Shown here: one piece after another, positions 15,297 to 25,537 of the stretch
Position numbering within the stretch: position 1 is the first letter of the stretch
Layout: every line of letters starts with the position of its first letter
The notes under the pieces: model-generated
The model's input: the letters and a program-made list of their open reading frames with translations, nothing else
What the model was told of the DNA's origin: nothing
The model's database searches: none
Position numbers and translations under genes: made by a program
Source of the DNA: Alphaproteobacteria bacterium
GTDB taxonomy: Bacteria; Pseudomonadota; Alphaproteobacteria; UBA6615
Assembly: GCA_028279245.1 (NCBI GenBank)
Contig: JANQOE010000023.1
Coordinates: 1 to 64,000 of the forward strand
Direction of reading: 5' to 3'
DNA length: 64,000 nt

Positions 15297-16283
15297 ATGT
15301 TTAGGCGGCATTTCGCCGGACTGGGACTGGCTGTTGCGGGCGCGCTGACCCTTGGCCTGATGCCGGCAGCGACCGGCCTGTCGACGGCTTCGGCGCAGGA
15401 AGCCTTTCCGACAAAACCGATCCGCGTCATCGTGCCGTTCGCGCCGGGCGGACGGACCGATACAGTCGCGCGGCTGCTGGCCAAGAAGATCGAGGAGAAG
15501 GACCTGCTGCCGCAGCCGTTGGTGATCGTCAACATGCAAGGCGGCAGCGGCGGCATCGCCGGACAGGCGACGCTGGACGCGGAGGCCGACGGCCACACCA
15601 TCCTGCATTGGCACCATCAGTTCCTGATCGCCCATGCGATGGAGCTGGTGCCGTTCGCGATCGAAGACTTCGATTCCATCGGCTTTGCCGGCGGCGGCAG
15701 CCCGGTGTGGGCGGTGCGGGCGGAGTCGGACTACGCAACGCTGGACGATCTGGTCACCGCCCTGCAGGCGGAGCCGCGGTCGCTGGTCGAAACGATCGGC
15801 ATCGGCACGATCCCGCATTTCGTCGGCGCGCTGCTGGCCAACGAGGCTGGTTTCGAAACTCGCAAGGTGCAGGCGGGCGGTGGTGCCGACCGGCTGAAAA
15901 TGATTGCCGGCAAACAGGCCGACATCGCGCTGTTCTCGGCGGCCGAATATCTGCGCAACAAGGACGTGGCCGGCGGCTTGCGGCCCCTGGTGTTCTTCGG
16001 GCCGAACCGCATCGACGTGATCTCTGAAGTGCCGACGGCGTTGGAGCTGGGATACAATGTGACCTGGGCCAACCCGAACTGGTGGCTGGCGCCGAAGGGC
16101 GTGCCGGCCGACCGGCTGCAACTGATCGCCGATGCGTTGCGGCAAGCGATGGACGATCCGGAGATCAAAGAGTGGTACGTCACCAACGCGCTGGATCACT
16201 ATTGGACGGACGGTGCGACGGCGATGGACGAGTCCGCAACCCTGCAGGCGGCCCTCGACGAGGTCGCCGCGACCATCAAGTAG
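15297..16283 (+). CDS. tctC: Tripartite tricarboxylate transporter substrate-binding protein (TctC/Bug family)
   Basis: Signal peptide; FPTKPIRVIVPFAPGGRTDTVARLLAKKI; followed by TctB and TctA. Confidence 0.92.
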   Translation: MFRRHFAGLGLAVAGALTLGLMPAATGLSTASAQEAFPTKPIRVIVPFAPGGRTDTVARLLAKKIEEKDLLPQPLVIVNMQGGSGGIAGQATLDAEADGHTILHWHHQFLIAHAMELVPFAIEDFDSIGFAGGGSPVWAVRAESDYATLDDLVTALQAEPRSLVETIGIGTIPHFVGALLANEAGFETRKVQAGGGADRLKMIAGKQADIALFSAAEYLRNKDVAGGLRPLVFFGPNRIDVISEVPTALELGYNVTWANPNWWLAPKGVPADRLQLIADALRQAMDDPEIKEWYVTNALDHYWTDGATAMDESATLQAALDEVAATIK

Positions 16284-16348
16284 TTTGCGGCACGATGTTG
16301 TTCGGGGCGTCACGTGACCGCGTGGCGCCCTTTTCTTTGGCGGTGTGA

Positions 16349-16828
16349 GTGACCGGCGTGAAGCTGACGAAAACAAAACGGGGTGATCTGCTGTTTGCGG
16401 CAGGGATCGCGGTTGCCGCCGTGGTGGTGTTTATCGGCACCATCGGCCTGCCGCCACCACGCTATGAACCGATCGGCTCCGCAGCAATTCCCCGGGTGAT
16501 GGCGGCCATTCTGCTGTTGTTGTCGGCGCTGTTGATCTTCGACGTGCTGCGCCGTCCGGCAAACACTGACCCGCAAGAGGCGCCGCGCGTGGCAACACCC
16601 CTTGCCCCGATTCTGTCGGCGGCCGCCATCATCGCTTACGTCGCGGTGATGGATAGCGGGTTGTTGGGGTTCCAACCCGCCACCGCGTTGCTGGTGTTCG
16701 GGTTGGCGTTCGGGCTGACCGGGTTCCGCCGCCGGGCGGCGTTGCCGGCAGCGGTGTTCGCGATCCTGCTGGCGCTGGGCACGTTCTACGTCTTCACCAA
16801 CTTCTTCTACATCGACTTGCCGCGCTGA
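16349..16828 (+). CDS. tctB: Tripartite tricarboxylate transporter small membrane subunit TctB
   Basis: Four-helix small membrane protein between tctC and tctA. Confidence 0.9.
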   Translation: MTGVKLTKTKRGDLLFAAGIAVAAVVVFIGTIGLPPPRYEPIGSAAIPRVMAAILLLLSALLIFDVLRRPANTDPQEAPRVATPLAPILSAAAIIAYVAVMDSGLLGFQPATALLVFGLAFGLTGFRRRAALPAAVFAILLALGTFYVFTNFFYIDLPR

Positions 16829-16831
16829 CGG

Positions 16832-18313
16832 ATGCTGGAAGCCTTTCAGACGACGTTTTCGTTCTGGCCGCTGACCTTCCTGTTGATCGGCACAGCAGCC
16901 GGCATCGTTGTCGGGTCGATCCCGGGGCTGACAGCGACCATGTTGATCGCCCTGACCCTGCCGCTCACCTTCACCATGGCGCCGACAACCGCGATGGCGT
17001 TGCTGGTCGGCGAATATGTCGGCGGCATTTCCGGCGGACTGATTTCGGCAACGTTGCTGCGTATGCCAGGGACGCCGGCGTCGATCATGACGACGCTGGA
17101 CGGTTTCCCAATGGCGACTTCCGGACGGGGGGAACGGGCGTTGGCCCTGGGTATCCTCGCGTCCGTTGTCGGCGGTCTGGTTTCCTGGGTGTTCCTTGCC
17201 GTGCTGTCGCCGCCGCTGTCGTTGCTCGCGCTGCGGTTCGGGCCGTGGGAGTACTTTGCGCTGGTGCTGATGGCGCTGGTGATGCTGGCGACCTTGTCCC
17301 AAGGGTCGATGATCAAGGGACTGATGGCCGGCTTCCTGGGCATGGTGCTGGCGGTGCCCGGCATCGACCCGTCGGTCGGCCAGTTGCGGCTGACCTTCGG
17401 CTTTCAGTCGATGGCCGGCGGCTTCTCGCTGTTGCCGGTGCTGATCGGCACCTTCGCGGTCAGCCAGATCTTCAAGGACCTGCTGTATCTGAACGAAAAG
17501 CTGCCTGATGTGCGGGTCGAGCGGCGGCGCATCATGGTCGGCTTCCGCGACCTGCGGACCCATGGCGCCAACCTGCTGCGGTCCTCCGTCATCGGCACCT
17601 GGATTGGCATCCTGCCGGGCATCGGCGGCAACATTGCGGCGATGGTGTCCTACGCCACTTCAAAAAACCTGTCGAAGGAACCGGAGAAGTTCGGCACCGG
17701 TCACGAGCCGGGCGTGGTGTCGACCGAGGCGGCGAACAACGCCTCGATCGGCGGCGCGCTGATCCCGCTGATCACCATGGGCATTCCGGGCAGCGTCACT
17801 GAGGCCGTGTTGATCGGCGCGCTGATCATTCACAACCTGCAGCCGGGCCCGTTGCTGTTCACGACGAACCCGGAAATCGCCTTCGGCATCATCACGTCCT
17901 ATCTGGTGGCGAACGTCATGATGCTGTTTCTGATGCTGTTCGCGATTTCATGGATCGCGAAGATCATGTACGTGCCGCGCCACCTGTTGCTGAGCGGCAT
18001 CCTGGTGTTCTGCGTCATCGGCACCTTTGCGCTCAACAACCGGTTCTTCGACGTGTGGGTGATGCTGGCGTTCGGCGCGCTCGGGTTCGTGCTGGAACGC
18101 TGCAAGGTGCCTTTGGGGCCGTTCGTCATCGGCTTCGTGCTGTCGCCCTTGGCCGAGGAACAGTTGCGGTCCGGCCTGATGCTGTCGGATGGCGACCCGG
18201 CCGGGGTTTTGGAGTATCCGATTGCCACTGGGTTGCTGGTTGTGGTCGTGCTGACGCTGTGCTGGCCGCTTATTCGGCGGCAGATCGAGGCGGTGCGAAA
18301 GCCGGTTGGTTAG
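16832..18313 (+). CDS. tctA: Tripartite tricarboxylate transporter large permease TctA
   Basis: GSIPGLTATMLIALTLPLTFTM, LRMPGTPASIMTTLDGFPMA, GFVLSPLAEEQLRSGLMLS. Confidence 0.96.
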   Translation: MLEAFQTTFSFWPLTFLLIGTAAGIVVGSIPGLTATMLIALTLPLTFTMAPTTAMALLVGEYVGGISGGLISATLLRMPGTPASIMTTLDGFPMATSGRGERALALGILASVVGGLVSWVFLAVLSPPLSLLALRFGPWEYFALVLMALVMLATLSQGSMIKGLMAGFLGMVLAVPGIDPSVGQLRLTFGFQSMAGGFSLLPVLIGTFAVSQIFKDLLYLNEKLPDVRVERRRIMVGFRDLRTHGANLLRSSVIGTWIGILPGIGGNIAAMVSYATSKNLSKEPEKFGTGHEPGVVSTEAANNASIGGALIPLITMGIPGSVTEAVLIGALIIHNLQPGPLLFTTNPEIAFGIITSYLVANVMMLFLMLFAISWIAKIMYVPRHLLLSGILVFCVIGTFALNNRFFDVWVMLAFGALGFVLERCKVPLGPFVIGFVLSPLAEEQLRSGLMLSDGDPAGVLEYPIATGLLVVVVLTLCWPLIRRQIEAVRKPVG

Positions 18314-18383
18314 CGACACCGCCTTGCGTCGCTTTCTGTTCGAGACGGAAGCGGTGTTCTATCCGGGCCGGCCGTGACGCGGC

Positions 18384-18764
18384 CTAGTGGGTGGCGGCAC
18401 CCGTGGCGGTCTCCCCGCCGTCGGGCCCGTACATCACCACCCAGGTTTCGAAATCGTCGGTGAAGTCTTCGAACCGGTGCGGCATGCCGGCGGGAACGAA
18501 CATGGTGTCGCCGGGTTGGAACGGCACCCGTTCCGTGCGCGCTGCGGTCTCGCCAACGGCTAACATGCCGGTGCCGGCCATCACGATGTAGAGTTCGTCC
18601 TGGTCGTGTGGCGTCTGTTCGTCGGTGCCGCGCGGCGCGTAGTGATAGAGCTCCATCGTGCCATGTTCGAACAACTGCGCGGCGCGCAGGCCGCCGGGGC
18701 TGGTCCCCGCTGCCAGGGCTTCGGTCACGGCTAGGCGGGCGGCGGTGAGCGATGTTTGGTCCAT
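18384..18764 (-). CDS. Cupin domain protein
   Basis: HDQDELYIVMAGTGMLAVGET ... FQPGDTMFVPAGMPHRFEDFTDDFETWVVMYG; start placed at MDQTSL with RBS AGGAGAT. Confidence 0.88.
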   Translation of the reverse strand: MDQTSLTAARLAVTEALAAGTSPGGLRAAQLFEHGTMELYHYAPRGTDEQTPHDQDELYIVMAGTGMLAVGETAARTERVPFQPGDTMFVPAGMPHRFEDFTDDFETWVVMYGPDGGETATGAATH

Positions 18765-18851
18765 CGAAAATCTCCTCTTGTTCACGTACCTATTATGTCG
18801 TCGGGAACAGCGGGGCGTGCAGATGGCTGCGACGCTTTGGCCCATGCCGCA

Positions 18852-19403
18852 TCACTGCGCCGCCGGCAGTTCGCAGCCCGCCGCAGTACAGACGCCCGTG
18901 GGCTGGTCGGCCGCGTTTGTACTGGCCGTTGCGGCTGCCGGTGCCTCGGAAACCAGCGCCATGATCTCGGCCCCCAAGCGCAGGTCGGGCACATGGCCGA
19001 AATGCTGAAAACGGCGGCGGCCCTGGCGGTCGATCAACACAAGGGTCGGCGTCCCACGCATCTGGTAGGCCGCCATGGTCTGCGGGATGCCGTCGGCAGC
19101 GCCGGGCATGTCGACGCCGACGGGAAAGGAGATCCGGTATTCGTGCAGAAACGCGGTCAGCGCCGTCAACGTTTGCGCCGCGTGATGTTCGAACACCGAA
19201 TGCAGACCGACGACGGCGACGTCATCGTGGCCGAACATGTCGTGCACGCGCTGCGCCTGCGGCAGACCGTCGCTGACACAGCCGGGGCAGAGCATCTGAA
19301 ACGCCTCGACCAGCACGACTTTGCCGCGCAACTGTAGCAGGCTCGATGGCTGGGACGTGTTGAGCCATTCGCTTATTCGCCAGTCGGGCGCTGTGGTCGT
19401 CAT
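18852..19403 (-). CDS. Redoxin/peroxiredoxin-like thioredoxin-fold protein
   Basis: LRGKVVLVEAFQMLCPGCVSDGLPQ with CxxC motif; RGTPTLVLIDRQGR cis-Pro segment; ATGA overlap with HTHP stop suggests start at 19403. Confidence 0.88.
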   Translation of the reverse strand: MTTTAPDWRISEWLNTSQPSSLLQLRGKVVLVEAFQMLCPGCVSDGLPQAQRVHDMFGHDDVAVVGLHSVFEHHAAQTLTALTAFLHEYRISFPVGVDMPGAADGIPQTMAAYQMRGTPTLVLIDRQGRRRFQHFGHVPDLRLGAEIMALVSEAPAAATASTNAADQPTGVCTAAGCELPAAQ

Positions 19404-19636
19404 CGGTTGTCCCGCCAATAGTTGTTGGCTGCAGCGACTGTTTGGAAGTGGGCCGCCACGACGTGGGATGCGGCGATCAGACTATCCGCGTTCTGGTCGT
19501 AGTCGGACCGTAGCCGCGCGCGGATTTCGTCCGAAGGCTGGGTCAGCTTGACCGCCATGCGTGCGAGCTTGATCGCCAGTGCATAGCCAGCCTCCGGCGT
19601 TTCGGTCACGAGGCTGGGTAGCCAAGACTCCGTCAT
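19400..19636 (-). CDS. Hexameric tyrosine-coordinated heme protein (HTHP)
   Basis: MTESWLPSLVTETPEAGYALAIKLARMAVKLTQPSDEIRARLRSDYDQNADSLIAASHVVAAHFQTVAAANNYWRDN closely resembles the Silicibacter pomeroyi HTHP sequence from memory; start placed at MTESW with upstream AAGGAG. Confidence 0.88.
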   Translation of the reverse strand: MTESWLPSLVTETPEAGYALAIKLARMAVKLTQPSDEIRARLRSDYDQNADSLIAASHVVAAHFQTVAAANNYWRDNR

Positions 19637-19689
19637 GGTGCTTCTCCTTGCGTTGGGGGCTGGCGGCGGGCTGGCCGCCGCCATGGCCT

Positions 19690-20442
19690 CTACTGATTGA
19701 CGCGACCAGGCAGACTGAGGTCGCCGGAGCCGATGTCGAAGACGTCGACGACGCAGAAGAACGGCGCGTGCAGGTTCTGATTGACGCGCAGGCCGGCGGT
19801 CACGCCATCGAACGCGGCGTCCTCGATGACCGCGATGTCATCGAACGGCACGCGGATCTCCACAGTGTCGGTGTGGATGTCCGGCTGCCACCCTGGGCTG
19901 TCGAGCAGAATGGGCAGACCGGGCCAGGTCTTTGGCAAGCGCGGTTTCGCGCCTTCCGGCACATCGAGCACCTTGAGGGCGCCGGGCCCGCAGGTATCGT
20001 CGGGGCCGAGGACGACCCAATGGCTGTGCCACACACCGCCGTCATTGGCGAAATCGCCGTCGTTGTTTTCGTCGAACAGCGGCGTGTCGTCGAAATCGGG
20101 ATGGCTGGTGGCGGCCAGCGCAAGAATGCCGGCGCCGCGTTCGAATCCGACCTCGTAAGGGTCGATCGTGGTCGGCCAGACATAGGCGTATGCATCGCTG
20201 CCGCCGACGGCGCCGGTCGGGGCCGGCGTGAGCGAACCGGCCGTGCCGGTGACGCCCATGTGGAAGACGGCGACGTTGCCCTCCGTCGCGATCCGCGCGT
20301 GGATCACGTCGAACGGGGCGGCAACCTGGTCCGATGGCGGCGCGACGAAGCCACCGTCATTGGGGCCGTGAGCCGCCGCCGTGCCGGCCGCGAGCAACAG
20401 TGCCACGGTGCCAGCGTGGTGAAGAAAAACCTTGTATGTCAT
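19690..20442 (-). CDS. Secreted hypothetical protein
   Basis: N-terminal signal peptide (FLHHAGTVALLLAAGTAAAHG); no family recognised; same strand between marR and HTHP. Confidence 0.75.
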   Translation of the reverse strand: MTYKVFLHHAGTVALLLAAGTAAAHGPNDGGFVAPPSDQVAAPFDVIHARIATEGNVAVFHMGVTGTAGSLTPAPTGAVGGSDAYAYVWPTTIDPYEVGFERGAGILALAATSHPDFDDTPLFDENNDGDFANDGGVWHSHWVVLGPDDTCGPGALKVLDVPEGAKPRLPKTWPGLPILLDSPGWQPDIHTDTVEIRVPFDDIAVIEDAAFDGVTAGLRVNQNLHAPFFCVVDVFDIGSGDLSLPGRVNQ

Positions 20443-20484
20443 GATGTTCGTGTCTCCTGTCTCGGCAGAGGTGGGTTGACGTTT

Positions 20485-20518
20485 GGATGCCTCGCCCGTT
20501 GCAGCGGGCGGGGCATCC
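20485..20518 (-). other. Strong hairpin between marR and the secreted-protein gene
   Basis: GGATGCCTCGCCCG-TTGCAG-CGGGCGGGGCATCC: 14-bp stem with a single mismatch/wobble; no obvious T-tract. Confidence 0.7.
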
Positions 20519-20529
20519 GTCTCAAATCA

Positions 20530-21153
20530 TCAGAGCGCCGACACAAATGTCTGCCAGTTGGCGGCAGCATCGGTCTCCGACGTCGTCTCGTGGTCGGCGC
20601 AGTCGAGGCGCAGGTTGGCATCGCCGAAGGCCGCGTCGACAAAGGCGCAGTGGTGCGGCGCAGCCGGATCATCATGCACGTTGGGCCGGAAGTACTGGCA
20701 GGTAGCGCACATGCGCTGCACAGGAATTGCCTGGCGCGTCTGCAGGGCGCGGACCATCTTGGTTAGGCCCTTGAGAAAGACCGCCTGTTCGCATGGGTCC
20801 AGAGAGTCGACGGCTTCAAGCAGCGCGTCGGGCCAGACCGCCATCGCCTTGGCGCGGCGGCGGCCGGTGCGGGTCGGGTGCAGGCGGACGGCGCGGGCGT
20901 CTTTTGGGTCCGGCCGTTTTTCGACCAGCCGTTTCCGCACGAGGGCCGCAACCGCGTCGCTGGCGGTCGGCTGGGTGACCGCCAGTTCGGCGGCCACATC
21001 ACCGATACGCGCCGGCCCGCGGGTGTCGAGCTGCACCAGGATCTGCGCCTGGGTCGGCGTTAGCCCGACTGCATCTGACTGCGCCCATTGCTCCGCCCTT
21101 AACACGGTGCCGATGCGCGCCAGCCCCGTGACGATGTTCCGCTCCGTCGTCAT
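20530..21153 (-). CDS. MarR family transcriptional regulator with C-terminal four-cysteine extension
   Basis: Winged-helix RIGDVAAELAVTQPTASDAVAALVRKRLVEKRPDPKDARAVRLHPT; C-terminal CATC-X16-C-X15-CADHE. Confidence 0.88.
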   Translation of the reverse strand: MTTERNIVTGLARIGTVLRAEQWAQSDAVGLTPTQAQILVQLDTRGPARIGDVAAELAVTQPTASDAVAALVRKRLVEKRPDPKDARAVRLHPTRTGRRRAKAMAVWPDALLEAVDSLDPCEQAVFLKGLTKMVRALQTRQAIPVQRMCATCQYFRPNVHDDPAAPHHCAFVDAAFGDANLRLDCADHETTSETDAAANWQTFVSAL

Positions 21154-21160
21154 GAAGCTG

Positions 21161-21181
21161 ATATGTAGGAGTCCTATATAT
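21161..21181. promoter_or_regulatory. Putative MarR operator
   Basis: ATATGTAGGA-G-TCCTATATAT near-perfect inverted repeat (one mismatch in 10-bp arms), 7 nt upstream of the marR ATG. Confidence 0.6.
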
Positions 21182-21206
21182 TTTCAAGAGAAAAAATGCG
21201 AGGAGG

Positions 21207-22496
21207 TTAGCGGAACATCAGGGCCGTCGGTATCGGACGATCATAGGCGGCCAGCGGTATCCCGCGGCGGTCGCCTGGGCGCAGCAGTTGACCGCCGCCG
21301 CCGGCGAACATCTGGGTCGAGCCGCCGCCGTCCAGGTTGACAGCCGAGACCGCGCCGAGGCCTGCCATGATTTCCGCCAACTCGGCGAGGGTGACGCCGC
21401 CGGGCCGGGTGGCGGCTAGCATGCTGGACTCGCCGGCGACGGCGGCGACGATGAGTTGGCCGGCCGGATCGAGGCCGACCGCGAGGCGCGCGGCGCGCGT
21501 CGCATGGGTGTCGGCGGGGAAGCGCATTGGCGGATGGCGCAGGCCGCTGTTGCCGAAAAAGCCCTCGTCCCAAAAGGATTGTTCCGACAGAGCGTTCCCG
21601 CCGCCGAGGAGTGCGGGGCCGGCCTGCAGCGCCGCGGTCAATGACGGGAAAGGGGGACAGCGGAAGGTCACGGGCGCGCCCTGCTGTAGGGCGGCGACCG
21701 TGTCGGCGGGCGGTTCTGCCGGCCAGCGCAGCACGATGCCGGCGCCGGGGACTGGCATGCCGCCGCCGCGTTTCGCCGCGACCGCCCACCGTTGCACCAG
21801 GGCGATTTCGAAGACGCCGGGCTGGGCGGGGGTTCGGCCGGCCGCCAATTCGTGCCGGCTGACGATGGCGACGTCTGGGTCGTCCGGCGCCAGCACCTCA
21901 CCGGTGGGCAAGCAGACTTCGATGTCGCCCAGGGCGAGGTGCGCGAAGACAACTCGGTCCGGCAACTGCAGGATCGCGGCGCGGCCGCCGAGGGGTGGGC
22001 TGAGGATCTCACCGTCCCCGGCGACCAAACCGATGGGATCGCCGAGTGCGTCGAGGGGGCTGGCTTCGTCGCCCATGAGAAAGAAGTTGCCGTTGCTGAG
22101 GAGCGCCGACTGGGGTTCGCCCCGGGAGTGGTCTCGTAGATAGCCGAGTTCGGCGACCGGAAAGGCGCGGACTGGCGGTCCCGACGGGTGGTCCAAGCGG
22201 CCATGGGTGGCGGCCGTGTCGATACGGCGCGTGGGCAGGGATGCAGCGAGGCGCACGCGTTCTGCCCACACCTCCAGTCCGTCGATTTGCTGCGGCGCGC
22301 AACGCTGTGCCGGCCGCGGCAGCGGGACTGCTTCCAGCACTTCGTCATAGATGTCCGGCGACAGCATGGTGAGATCGGCCGCGAGCCGGGCGGGCGATGC
22401 GCGCAGGGGCGCGACGTCGAAGGCGCGGCAGAGAGCGATGACGACCTGCGCGACATGGCCATTCGACAGGGTGACATCGCGTTGTTCGAACCGCAC
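21207..22496 (-). CDS. Phosphodiester glycosidase family protein (NAGPA-like domain)
   Basis: GLGAVSAVNLDGGGSTQMFAGGG hallmark; GTG start at 22496 avoids a long overlap with the upstream permease gene. Confidence 0.85.
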   Translation of the reverse strand: MRFEQRDVTLSNGHVAQVVIALCRAFDVAPLRASPARLAADLTMLSPDIYDEVLEAVPLPRPAQRCAPQQIDGLEVWAERVRLAASLPTRRIDTAATHGRLDHPSGPPVRAFPVAELGYLRDHSRGEPQSALLSNGNFFLMGDEASPLDALGDPIGLVAGDGEILSPPLGGRAAILQLPDRVVFAHLALGDIEVCLPTGEVLAPDDPDVAIVSRHELAAGRTPAQPGVFEIALVQRWAVAAKRGGGMPVPGAGIVLRWPAEPPADTVAALQQGAPVTFRCPPFPSLTAALQAGPALLGGGNALSEQSFWDEGFFGNSGLRHPPMRFPADTHATRAARLAVGLDPAGQLIVAAVAGESSMLAATRPGGVTLAELAEIMAGLGAVSAVNLDGGGSTQMFAGGGGQLLRPGDRRGIPLAAYDRPIPTALMFR

Positions 22497-22498
22497 CG

Positions 22499-23341
22499 CT
22501 ACCCCTTGATGCCGGAGCCCATGAAGTTCTGCACGATATGCCGTTGGGCGGAGAGGTAGACAAGGATGAGCGGCAGCGTCGAGATGACCGCGCCGGTCAT
22601 CAATAGTTTCCAACTGGCCTCATATTGGCTGACAAATGTCATCAAGCCTTGCGGCAAGGTGCGGAGGTCTGGATCGGTGATGTAGAGAACCGGGCGCAGC
22701 AGTTCGTCCCAGTTGGTGATGAAGGCGATGACGAACAATGCGGCGAGCGCCGGCTTCGCGTTCGGCAGCATCACCGAGTAGTAGATGCGAAACAGCCCGG
22801 CGCCGTCGACGATGGCTGCTTCTTCCAGTTCCTTCGGCATGGACCGGAAGGTCTCGGTCATCAGTAGGGTACCGAGGGTGCCGACGAGGAAGGACGGCAC
22901 AATCAGCGGCAGGTAAGTGTCGAGCCAGCCGAGGCCGCGCATCAGCAGGAATTCCGGGATGATCGTCACCTCCACCGGTACGAACATGGTGCCGAGGATG
23001 GCGACGAAAATCAGCCGCCGGCCCGGAAACTCCAACCGGCCGAAGGCATAGCCGGCAAGAGAGCAGGTGAACAGCTGACCGATGGATGCCATCGTCGCGA
23101 CGAAGGTCGAGTTGATGAAGTAGCGCAGGAAATTGCGTTCGTTCCAGACGGTCACGTAGTTGCTGAACGGTGTGCCGTCGACGATGAGGGTCGGGACGAA
23201 GGACGGCGGTAGCCGGAAGGTGTCGCCTTCGGACTGGAAGGAATTCACCAGCATCCACAGGAACGGGATGAAGGCGATGATGCCGTACACGATCAGCGCA
23301 GCGTAGAGCGCAACGCGCACGATCCGGCCGCTGTCACGCAT
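22499..23341 (-). CDS. Carbohydrate ABC transporter permease (MalG/UgpE-like)
   Basis: EEAAIVDGAGLFRIYYSVMLPNAKPALAALFVIAFITNWDELLRP EAA loop. Confidence 0.95.
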   Translation of the reverse strand: MRDSGRIVRVALYAALIVYGIIAFIPFLWMLVNSFQSEGDTFRLPPSFVPTLIVDGTPFSNYVTVWNERNFLRYFINSTFVATMASIGQLFTCSLAGYAFGRLEFPGRRLIFVAILGTMFVPVEVTIIPEFLLMRGLGWLDTYLPLIVPSFLVGTLGTLLMTETFRSMPKELEEAAIVDGAGLFRIYYSVMLPNAKPALAALFVIAFITNWDELLRPVLYITDPDLRTLPQGLMTFVSQYEASWKLLMTGAVISTLPLILVYLSAQRHIVQNFMGSGIKG

Positions 23342-24206
23342 AGGACCACCGGCGGCGTAGCCGAAAGTTCACCAAGGTCGCCAAGCCAACCAGGATGCAC
23401 AGCAGATACGCCAGGGCCGAGGCGTATCCCATGTCAAAATGGATGAAGGCATTCTGGTAGATGAAGAAGGCAAGGGTCGTCGACGCCTGATTTGGACCGC
23501 CTTCGGTCAGGGCGAACGTGACCTCAAAGGTCTGGGACGAGCGTACGAGGGCGATGATGATGACGAAGAATGTGGTCGGTGCGAGCAACGGCAACGTCAC
23601 ATAACGAAACACCTGCCAGCGGGTGGCGCCGTCGACCCGCGCCGCCTCGCGCAGGGTGGGGTCGATTCCCTGCAAACCGGCGAGGAACAACAACATGAAG
23701 AAGCCGGCCTCGCGCCACACCGATACGGTCGCCAGAGCGATCAGCGCCCAGTTCGGGTCGGCCAACCAGGCGGGCGGGTCGGTGAAACCGAGCCACTTCA
23801 AAAAGTTGTTCAGGAGGCCGAAGCGGGTCGAGAAGATCCAGCGCCAGGTCAGGGTGACGGCGACGGTTGAGGTGATATAGGGCAGGAAATAGAGGCCGCG
23901 AAAGAACGGCGCAGCGCGAATGCCGGTGTTGAGCAACACCGCCAGGCCCATGCCGACCACTGTCACGCCGGGCACGTACATCAATGCATAGACGGTGGTG
24001 TTCTGGAGGATGAACCAGAACTCGCCCGACTGCAGCATTGTCAAGTAGTTGCCGAAACCGACCCATTCGGGCACCCCAATGACATTCCAGTTGGTGAAGG
24101 AGATGCCGAAGGCGGCGGCAATCGGGCCGAGCCGGAAGACCAGCAGGCCGACTAACGCGGGGATGAGAAACAGGTAGGCGTAGTTGGTGACGCGGCGGGA
24201 TTCCAT
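23334..24206 (-). CDS. Sugar ABC transporter permease (MalF/UgpA-like)
   Basis: LREAARVDGATRWQVFRYVTLPLLAPTTFF EAA loop. Confidence 0.95.
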   Translation of the reverse strand: MESRRVTNYAYLFLIPALVGLLVFRLGPIAAAFGISFTNWNVIGVPEWVGFGNYLTMLQSGEFWFILQNTTVYALMYVPGVTVVGMGLAVLLNTGIRAAPFFRGLYFLPYITSTVAVTLTWRWIFSTRFGLLNNFLKWLGFTDPPAWLADPNWALIALATVSVWREAGFFMLLFLAGLQGIDPTLREAARVDGATRWQVFRYVTLPLLAPTTFFVIIIALVRSSQTFEVTFALTEGGPNQASTTLAFFIYQNAFIHFDMGYASALAYLLCILVGLATLVNFRLRRRWSYA

Positions 24207-24253
24207 TCAGGCGGCGGACGCCGGGCCGGTGCGATACCGGCCCGGCTTTGCGT

Positions 24254-25537
24254 CTACTGTTGCGACAGGACGCCGTTGCCGTATTCGACGAAGGCCGCCA
24301 CGGCTTCGTCGAGAGTCTTGCGGCCGTTGAACACTTCATCCAACTCGCCGTTCATGCCACCGCTCTCGGTCGCGGCATAACCGCGCCACTTGCTCCACGC
24401 CGGCGTGAAGGAAGTGGTGGTCGTCTGGGCACCGATGTTGAGGATGACATCCTTGTTGGCCGGTTGCTCATCGCGCTCCAGCCATTCGTCGGTTTCGGCG
24501 ATGGCCCGGTAGGCCGGGACTTTGCCTGCCTCGAAATCGGACGGCGACCGGCCCTCGCCCACCATGTGTTGAATGAAGGCCCAGGCCAGGTCCGATTGCT
24601 CGCTATTCGGTGCAACTGCCAGCATGTCGGCCCAGGCATAGCCCCGCGCGGTGTCGGCCGTAGCGCTCGGCCCCATCGGTACTTGCGCGATCCCCCATTC
24701 GAACGAGTCGCCGGCAACCTTGCGGACATTGTTAATGTTCCACGAGCCGTCGACCCACATGGCCGCCATGCCTTGCGGGAACACGTCCTGCTGGCGGATG
24801 CCTTCCATCTCCTGCGGTTGGGCCGCAACGCCATGAACGTTGGCCAAATCGGTGACGAACTGCAACGCTTCGATTGCCGCCGCGTCCGGTGCCAATTGTG
24901 TGCGGTCGTCGCTCAGCAACTGGCCGCCGTTGCGGTAGATCCACGGTTCGATATGGGCGTACCGGCCGTAGGCCCAGAAACCAAACTGCTCCGGATCGCC
25001 GTCACCGTTGCTGTCGGTGGTCAATGCTTTAGCCGCTTCGAGGAACTCGTCCCAGGTCCAGTCGGCATCAGGGTGCGGCACGCCGGCCGCGTCGAACGCC
25101 GTCTTGTTGTAGTAGAGCACAGGTGCGACCCAGTTCTGCGGAAAGGCGTACATGCCGTCACCAAAGCGGGCGATATCCATCGCGCCGCTGTAGTACGCAT
25201 CGCCGTCGAGTTCGCCGACATATGCCGACAGGTCGGCGAGTTGCCCACTGGCCTGCCATTCCTGGATAAAGCCGGACGACATCGCGAAGACGTCCGGCAG
25301 GTCGCCGGCCGCGGCCAGGGCGGACAGGCGCGGCCAATAGTCTTTCTGCGGCATGGCGAGTGCCTCGACCTCCACACCCGGGTTGGCCGCTTCAAACTCC
25401 TTGATCGCGGACTGCTCGATCTCGAGCTGCTCCGGATCCCAATTCATGTAAGTCAGTTTTGTTTGCGCCACTGCCGCCGTTGCACCGAGCAAAACCGCCG
25501 TTCCGGAGGCAACACCAATCAAATGCCGAAGGCCCAT
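24254..25537 (-). CDS. Extracellular sugar-binding protein of ABC transporter
   Basis: Signal peptide MGLRHLIGVASGTAVLLGATAAVAQ then KLTYMNWDPEQLEIEQSAIKEFEAANPGVEVE; RBS AGGAGAGG. Confidence 0.93.
   Translation of the reverse strand: MGLRHLIGVASGTAVLLGATAAVAQTKLTYMNWDPEQLEIEQSAIKEFEAANPGVEVEALAMPQKDYWPRLSALAAAGDLPDVFAMSSGFIQEWQASGQLADLSAYVGELDGDAYYSGAMDIARFGDGMYAFPQNWVAPVLYYNKTAFDAAGVPHPDADWTWDEFLEAAKALTTDSNGDGDPEQFGFWAYGRYAHIEPWIYRNGGQLLSDDRTQLAPDAAAIEALQFVTDLANVHGVAAQPQEMEGIRQQDVFPQGMAAMWVDGSWNINNVRKVAGDSFEWGIAQVPMGPSATADTARGYAWADMLAVAPNSEQSDLAWAFIQHMVGEGRSPSDFEAGKVPAYRAIAETDEWLERDEQPANKDVILNIGAQTTTTSFTPAWSKWRGYAATESGGMNGELDEVFNGRKTLDEAVAAFVEYGNGVLSQQ

Follow-up and report, generated by a model that had tools for sequence, protein, structure and literature searches.

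Organization of the Locus

The window, i.e., the whole stretch of 64,000 nucleotides of alphaproteobacterial DNA that was analyzed, contains a run of five minus-strand genes extending from position 21153 down to 18384, in the order MarR-family regulator with four C-terminal cysteines (MarR4C), predicted secreted protein, hexameric tyrosine-coordinated heme protein (HTHP), redoxin, and cupin, with intergenic distances of 87, 53, −4, and 87 bases, respectively. All five co-directional genes described in an earlier sequence-only reading of this DNA are present where that reading had placed them. The features of the locus are as follows:

21166–21176, no strand: candidate operator TAGGAGTCCTA, the core of a longer imperfect palindrome (approximately 21162–21181) directly upstream of marR
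20530–21153, minus strand: MarR4C, 207 aa, predicted repressor of the MarR family with a C-x2-C-x16-C-x15-C tail
20485–20518, minus strand: GC-rich hairpin in the gap between marR and the secreted-protein gene (fold z −4.8, no U-run)
19690–20442, minus strand: predicted secreted protein, 250 aa, outside Pfam and NCBIfam
19400–19636, minus strand: HTHP, 78 aa (PF11534, match to 2oyy, alignment of 25 sequences)
18852–19403, minus strand: redoxin of the AhpC/TSA-Redoxin fold, with CPGC and a C-terminal C-x4-C (match to 3eyt, alignment)
18384–18764, minus strand: cupin (Cupin_2, 41 bits)

The ATG of the redoxin gene overlaps the stop codon of the HTHP gene by four bases, as had been claimed from the ATGA motif at this junction. 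With start codons chosen by hand, the two genes overlap or stand a few bases apart wherever both occur, an arrangement that fits translational coupling. A search of the operon region gave no canonical sigma-70 promoter. The hairpin at 20485–20518 is real, the fold of 20440–20535 reaching −37 kcal/mol (z −4.8); as an intrinsic terminator, which the sequence-only reading had named as a possible objection to a joint transcript, it is unsupported, since no U-run follows it and the terminator scan made no such call. Related GC-rich hairpins are located at the module loci of Defluviimonas (L116) and of genome G379 (L143). The cupin, previously counted as part of the redox run, has no comparable homologue at the other module loci and is probably outside the conserved module. 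A second cupin, 43% identical over 104 residues, is encoded elsewhere in the same genome (L002, G000:C55).

HTHP and the Redoxin

The 78-aa product matches PF11534 with 124.5 bits against a cut-off of 25, over positions 1–72 of 72, and its best solved match is 2oyy, the hexameric cytochrome of Ruegeria pomeroyi (E 1e-26); both matches bear out its assignment to the HTHP family. Tyr46 and Arg43 are invariant over 25 aligned sequences, and on the basis of the alignment and the numbering of the family we take them to be the heme ligand and the distal arginine, respectively. In the solved HTHP the tyrosine is proximal and the arginine distal, and reduction of peroxide by the protein was seen at an electrode (PMC4813847); R. 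pomeroyi is the organism whose HTHP was crystallized (PMC4813847 and its reference 20). The family, described earlier as rare, is not especially rare, as at least 577 HTHP places were confirmed in a one-genome-per-species collection, yet within the class sample only 6 of 385 genomes have one. Some HTHP genes reside on plasmids of Escherichia (L026, NZ_CP126915.1), one of them conjugative, with annotation as a peroxidase. The HTHP of plasmid pTAV3 of Paracoccus versutus (L030:3902-4225) has an N-terminal extension resembling a signal peptide, which suggests a periplasmic location of that protein.

The best solved relative of the redoxin is 3eyt, i.e., SPOA0173 of R. pomeroyi (E 2e-56, with the CPGC motifs aligned), while its Pfam scores are barely above the cut-off (28.8 bits for PF00578 and 27.3 for PF08534). 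The protein thus has a thioredoxin-like fold with CxxC and can be placed in the SPOA0173 subfamily of the Redoxin/AhpC-TSA superfamily; the version from the window is predicted to be cytoplasmic. No paper on SPOA0173 was found in the open-access literature. Most of the relatives end in C-x4-C, in the window CTAAGC (18852–18910), and this tail extends past the region covered by the alignment with the solved 3eyt construct. A search with the redoxin gave a match in 16 of 260 genomes. At 6 of the 15 redoxin loci outside the genome of origin it is accompanied by MarR4C and/or the secreted-protein gene, and at 3 of the 15 a catalase gene is adjoining or nearby. Because it mostly occurs without HTHP, the redoxin need not be the electron donor of the heme protein.

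The Four-Cysteine Regulator and Its Operator

The regulator has a winged-helix MarR domain (PF12802, 52.4 bits; PF01047, 45.3 bits), and the four C-terminal cysteines attributed to it earlier were confirmed as C149, C152, C169, and C185. They are invariant over 12 aligned regulators that are 21–65% identical to the MarR of the window and belong to two types: type I, that of the window, with TAGGANTCCTA in front of the unit, and type II, with TATCGASTCGATA-like pairs in a divergent intergenic gap. All four cysteines are kept even though identity between the two types is only 21–26%. The spacing pattern of the tail is matched by 33 of 34 module regulators, the remaining one having a longer last spacer. 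The tail search gave a match in 16 of 289 genomes, and 8 of the 12 strong matches outside the genome of origin adjoin genes for the secreted protein, the redoxin, or a MOSC protein. No solved relative of the tail was found, and the four cysteines could form a structural zinc site without a sensing role. The reactive cysteine of the OhrR type, which lies near the N terminus, is absent, as the regulator in the window has no cysteine before residue 120.

The TAGGAGTCCTA palindrome is located 12 bases before the ATG of marR, and the copy at 21166–21176 is the sole exact one in the 4.34 Mb genome. Within 1.56 Mb of collected loci TAGGANTCCTA has 12 exact copies, each ahead of a module unit: 11 stand immediately upstream of genes for MarR4C, the redoxin, or the secreted protein, and the twelfth is in front of a thioredoxin–secreted protein–DUF2024-like–MarR4C unit of genome G110. 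It was found once per genome in eight whole genomes, in seven of them at the module, compared with 0–3 copies of a reversed control pattern, and the type II operator TAKCGASTCGMTA has an exact match in three of six genomes, every site being at a module; these site counts ignore kinship between the genomes. In Rhizobium SSA_523 TAGGANTCCTA is present at a redoxin–SOD–MarR unit and also at a separate secreted-protein gene, while in the cyanobacterium Nostoc a four-cysteine MarR gene is divergent from tpx–thioredoxin–MOSC with TAGGAGTCCTA between them. The palindromic operator proposed earlier is conserved and module-specific, as is the four-cysteine MarR, across the collected loci and whole genomes. 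Among the open-access papers matched by a search for the operator sequences, none evidently deals with them in connection with bacterial regulators.

The Predicted Secreted Protein

The N terminus of the 250-aa protein is hydrophobic and, as judged by eye, resembles a signal peptide. In agreement with the claim that its family is an unrecognized one, the protein has no match in Pfam or NCBIfam; a profile compared with PDB and Pfam gave nothing credible, and no relatives were found in a scan of viral contigs. An AlphaFold model based on five sequences reached a pLDDT of 40.8, below use for a structure search. The alignment reveals the motifs WHxHWVVL and HPDxxD, three invariant histidines (His114, His139, and His141), and a cysteine pair kept in all members except that of Hymenobacter, features that would suit a metal site and a disulfide. 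The profile recognized 17 of the 385 class-sample genomes, with 19 loci.

Recurrence and Composition of the Module

The gene set recurs in other genera, a point that the earlier reading had put up for checking. On the R. pomeroyi megaplasmid MOSC–MarR genes are divergent from secreted protein–HTHP–redoxin–MOSC–PDR oxidoreductase, and the same core genes are found in Sulfitobacter F26204, Actibacterium XHP0104, a Roseobacter MAG, and genome G677. A Geminicoccaceae MAG has MarR–secreted protein–HTHP without the redoxin, and a plasmid of Hymenobacter (Bacteroidota) carries secreted protein–HTHP with MarR and MOSC genes nearby.

The class sample was also searched from the side of the secreted protein, to avoid judging HTHP loci alone. 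At the 18 secreted-protein loci besides that of the window, MarR4C is adjoining or near at 15, the redoxin at 7, MOSC at 3, and HTHP at 1, simple counts that are inflated by species sampling and shared ancestry. Conversely, the secreted protein and/or the redoxin accompany HTHP at 5 of 80 species-wide loci, chosen by similarity to the HTHP of the window, and at 2 of 18 plasmid loci. Judged from these neighborhoods, the conserved core is MarR4C with the secreted protein, and the redoxin is the commonest third member. HTHP had been regarded, together with a dedicated redoxin, as the heart of the module; most secreted-protein and redoxin loci lack HTHP and most HTHP loci lack both of the others, and the counts from the secreted-protein, regulator, redoxin, and HTHP sides make it an optional member. 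The proposed neighborhood analysis of HTHP homologs supports the earlier reading in part: HTHP does recur with module genes across genera, but at only a small fraction of its species-wide loci. The HTHP tree, built on 72 columns, puts the module HTHPs at several places, with a minimum of six changes of module label, at least two of them forced by strongly supported branches; the number of recruitments is uncertain because the tree is weakly resolved.

That unrelated genes merely happen to be co-directional here is very improbable. The non-recurrent cupin and the low share of HTHP loci that adjoin the module would suit such a chance neighborhood, but MarR4C, the secreted protein, the redoxin, and the operator recur independently across genera and phyla, and for the MarR–secreted protein–redoxin core chance is already contradicted. 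Comparison of sequences and gene order shows that the four-cysteine MarR and its operator form a recurrent unit with the secreted protein and the redoxin across bacteria. In the lineage of the window the operon was probably acquired, as same-family genomes lack its genes: HTHP is absent from 23 other genomes of the family, and the secreted protein, the MarR4C tail, and the redoxin are absent from the sampled same-family genomes listed.

Other genes accompany module members at individual loci, their names in unannotated genomes being a reading of translated ORFs and not profile matches. They encode catalase (L120, L157, L207, L210), superoxide dismutase, SodC-like or annotated as such (L154, L121), AhpD-like proteins (L157, L121), and thioredoxin (L122, L148). 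It is also worth mentioning that a DUF2024-type gene is present at loci L147, L148, and L029, annotated in L029 and recognized by eye elsewhere, and that L148 carries in addition a small CPVC thioredoxin-like gene.

Proposed Function

Since the partners are oxidant-defense genes (HTHP, catalase, SOD, AhpD-like, thioredoxin, and thiol peroxidase), the reading favored here, with a probability of roughly 65%, is a dedicated, autoregulated oxidant-stress operon comprising MarR4C, the secreted protein, HTHP, and the redoxin. MarR4C would hold the operon off as a repressor until an oxidant or electrophile modified the four-cysteine site, by disulfide formation or by loss of a bound metal; peroxide would be the most likely inducer, reactive nitrogen a possible one. 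Release of MarR4C from the operator would allow expression of marR, the secreted protein, HTHP, and the redoxin. HTHP would then reduce peroxide via its tyrosine-ligated heme, as one among several interchangeable effectors, and the redoxin, with its CPGC and CX4C tail, would be a source or relay of thiol electrons for HTHP, for substrates, or for the oxidized regulator, the last route being modeled on thioredoxin and OhrR. The secreted protein would act in the periplasm against the same stress. A cysteine-based MarR regulator controlled by thioredoxin has a precedent in OhrR (PMC3469484).

The redox or detoxification role proposed from the sequence alone is thus favored by the catalase, superoxide dismutase, thiol peroxidase, thioredoxin, and AhpD-like partners, while its peroxide version meets a counterpoint, as some modules and many HTHP loci lie in nitric-oxide islands and not among peroxide genes. 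NO-linked genes (Rrf2/NsrR, globins, YtfE/DnrN, DUF6522, NnrS, and hmpA) were noted near 19 of the 80 HTHP loci versus 2 of 32 module loci free of HTHP, although the two sets are uneven, the HTHP loci being longer and picked by similarity. In Defluviimonas the genes directly beside the module encode NnrS, hemerythrin, and a group III truncated hemoglobin; in Shinella it abuts Rrf2–cbb3, and in Hymenobacter it lies near hmpA. These neighbors would suit a nitrosative-stress module in which MarR4C senses NO or nitrosothiols, perhaps via an Fe-S cluster on the four cysteines, and HTHP is a heme scavenger of NO or peroxynitrite. We consider this unlikely, as most secreted-protein loci and redoxin loci are devoid of NO genes, the remaining partners are Tpx and enzymes acting on peroxide and superoxide, and neither an Rrf2 regulator nor NO genes were noticed among the ORFs of 15500–24500, where the regulator is a MarR. 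Judged from the 80 HTHP loci (L035–L114), HTHP may have a role related to NO outside the module.

MarR regulators often respond to phenolics, and the operon could also belong with other MarR-controlled systems that detoxify electrophiles, quinones, or N-hydroxylated compounds, its redox partners being secondary. MOSC (YiiM-like) genes in several modules, PDR/VanB-type oxidoreductases, and the GST and OsmC-like neighbors in G252 point in this direction; still, MOSC genes are present at just 3 of the 18 class-sample loci and are missing from the run in the window, and HTHP, catalase, SOD, and Tpx suit oxidants better, which makes this explanation less probable again than the nitrosative one.

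Relation to Known Systems and Significance

The oxidant-stress operon favored here resembles the OhrR/Ohr system in its MarR-family regulator, presumed cysteine chemistry, local operator, and thiol redox effector, and thioredoxin control, as proposed here for MarR4C, is published for OhrR (PMC3469484). It differs from that system in that MarR4C has a separate C-terminal four-cysteine tail instead of the N-terminal sensing cysteine and the operon contains no Ohr. Another close likeness is the HTHP locus of R. pomeroyi DSS-3 (SPO_RS20690–20705), the source of both the HTHP structure and the redoxin structure (SPOA0173, 3eyt). It has a four-cysteine MarR, the secreted protein, HTHP, and the redoxin, the last three in the order of the window, but its MarR is divergent and not co-directional, its operator is of the different type, and MOSC genes are present on both sides. 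Numerous HTHP genes, along with a few modules, are located inside NsrR-type nitric-oxide regulons, whereas the regulator in the window is of the MarR and not the Rrf2 type, and no NO gene was noticed beside the operon. In the open-access papers searched, no description was found of the gene set of the window, in line with the earlier statement that no such pathway was described, nor of the DSS-3 locus as a regulon, nor of a physiological role of HTHP, despite its crystal structure and the peroxide chemistry seen in vitro.

A MarR-controlled oxidant-stress operon is rated as an already known kind of system; what is rated as new is the tail of the regulator and the family of the secreted protein. 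We lean, by a little, towards regarding these operons as a widespread new class of self-contained oxidant-stress regulons, with a MarR subclass bearing a C-terminal four-cysteine switch (thiol, zinc, or Fe-S), a new secreted family at the core, and interchangeable effectors such as HTHP, catalase, SOD, and thiol peroxidase, which would give HTHP a physiological context not found published. The four-cysteine MarR subclass and the secreted family, the latter encoded in 17 of 385 class-sample genomes, are concrete targets for study, and a binding assay can be set up directly on the conserved operator. Once HTHP is assigned to a defined regulon whose regulator, operator, and thiol partner are named, its role becomes testable.
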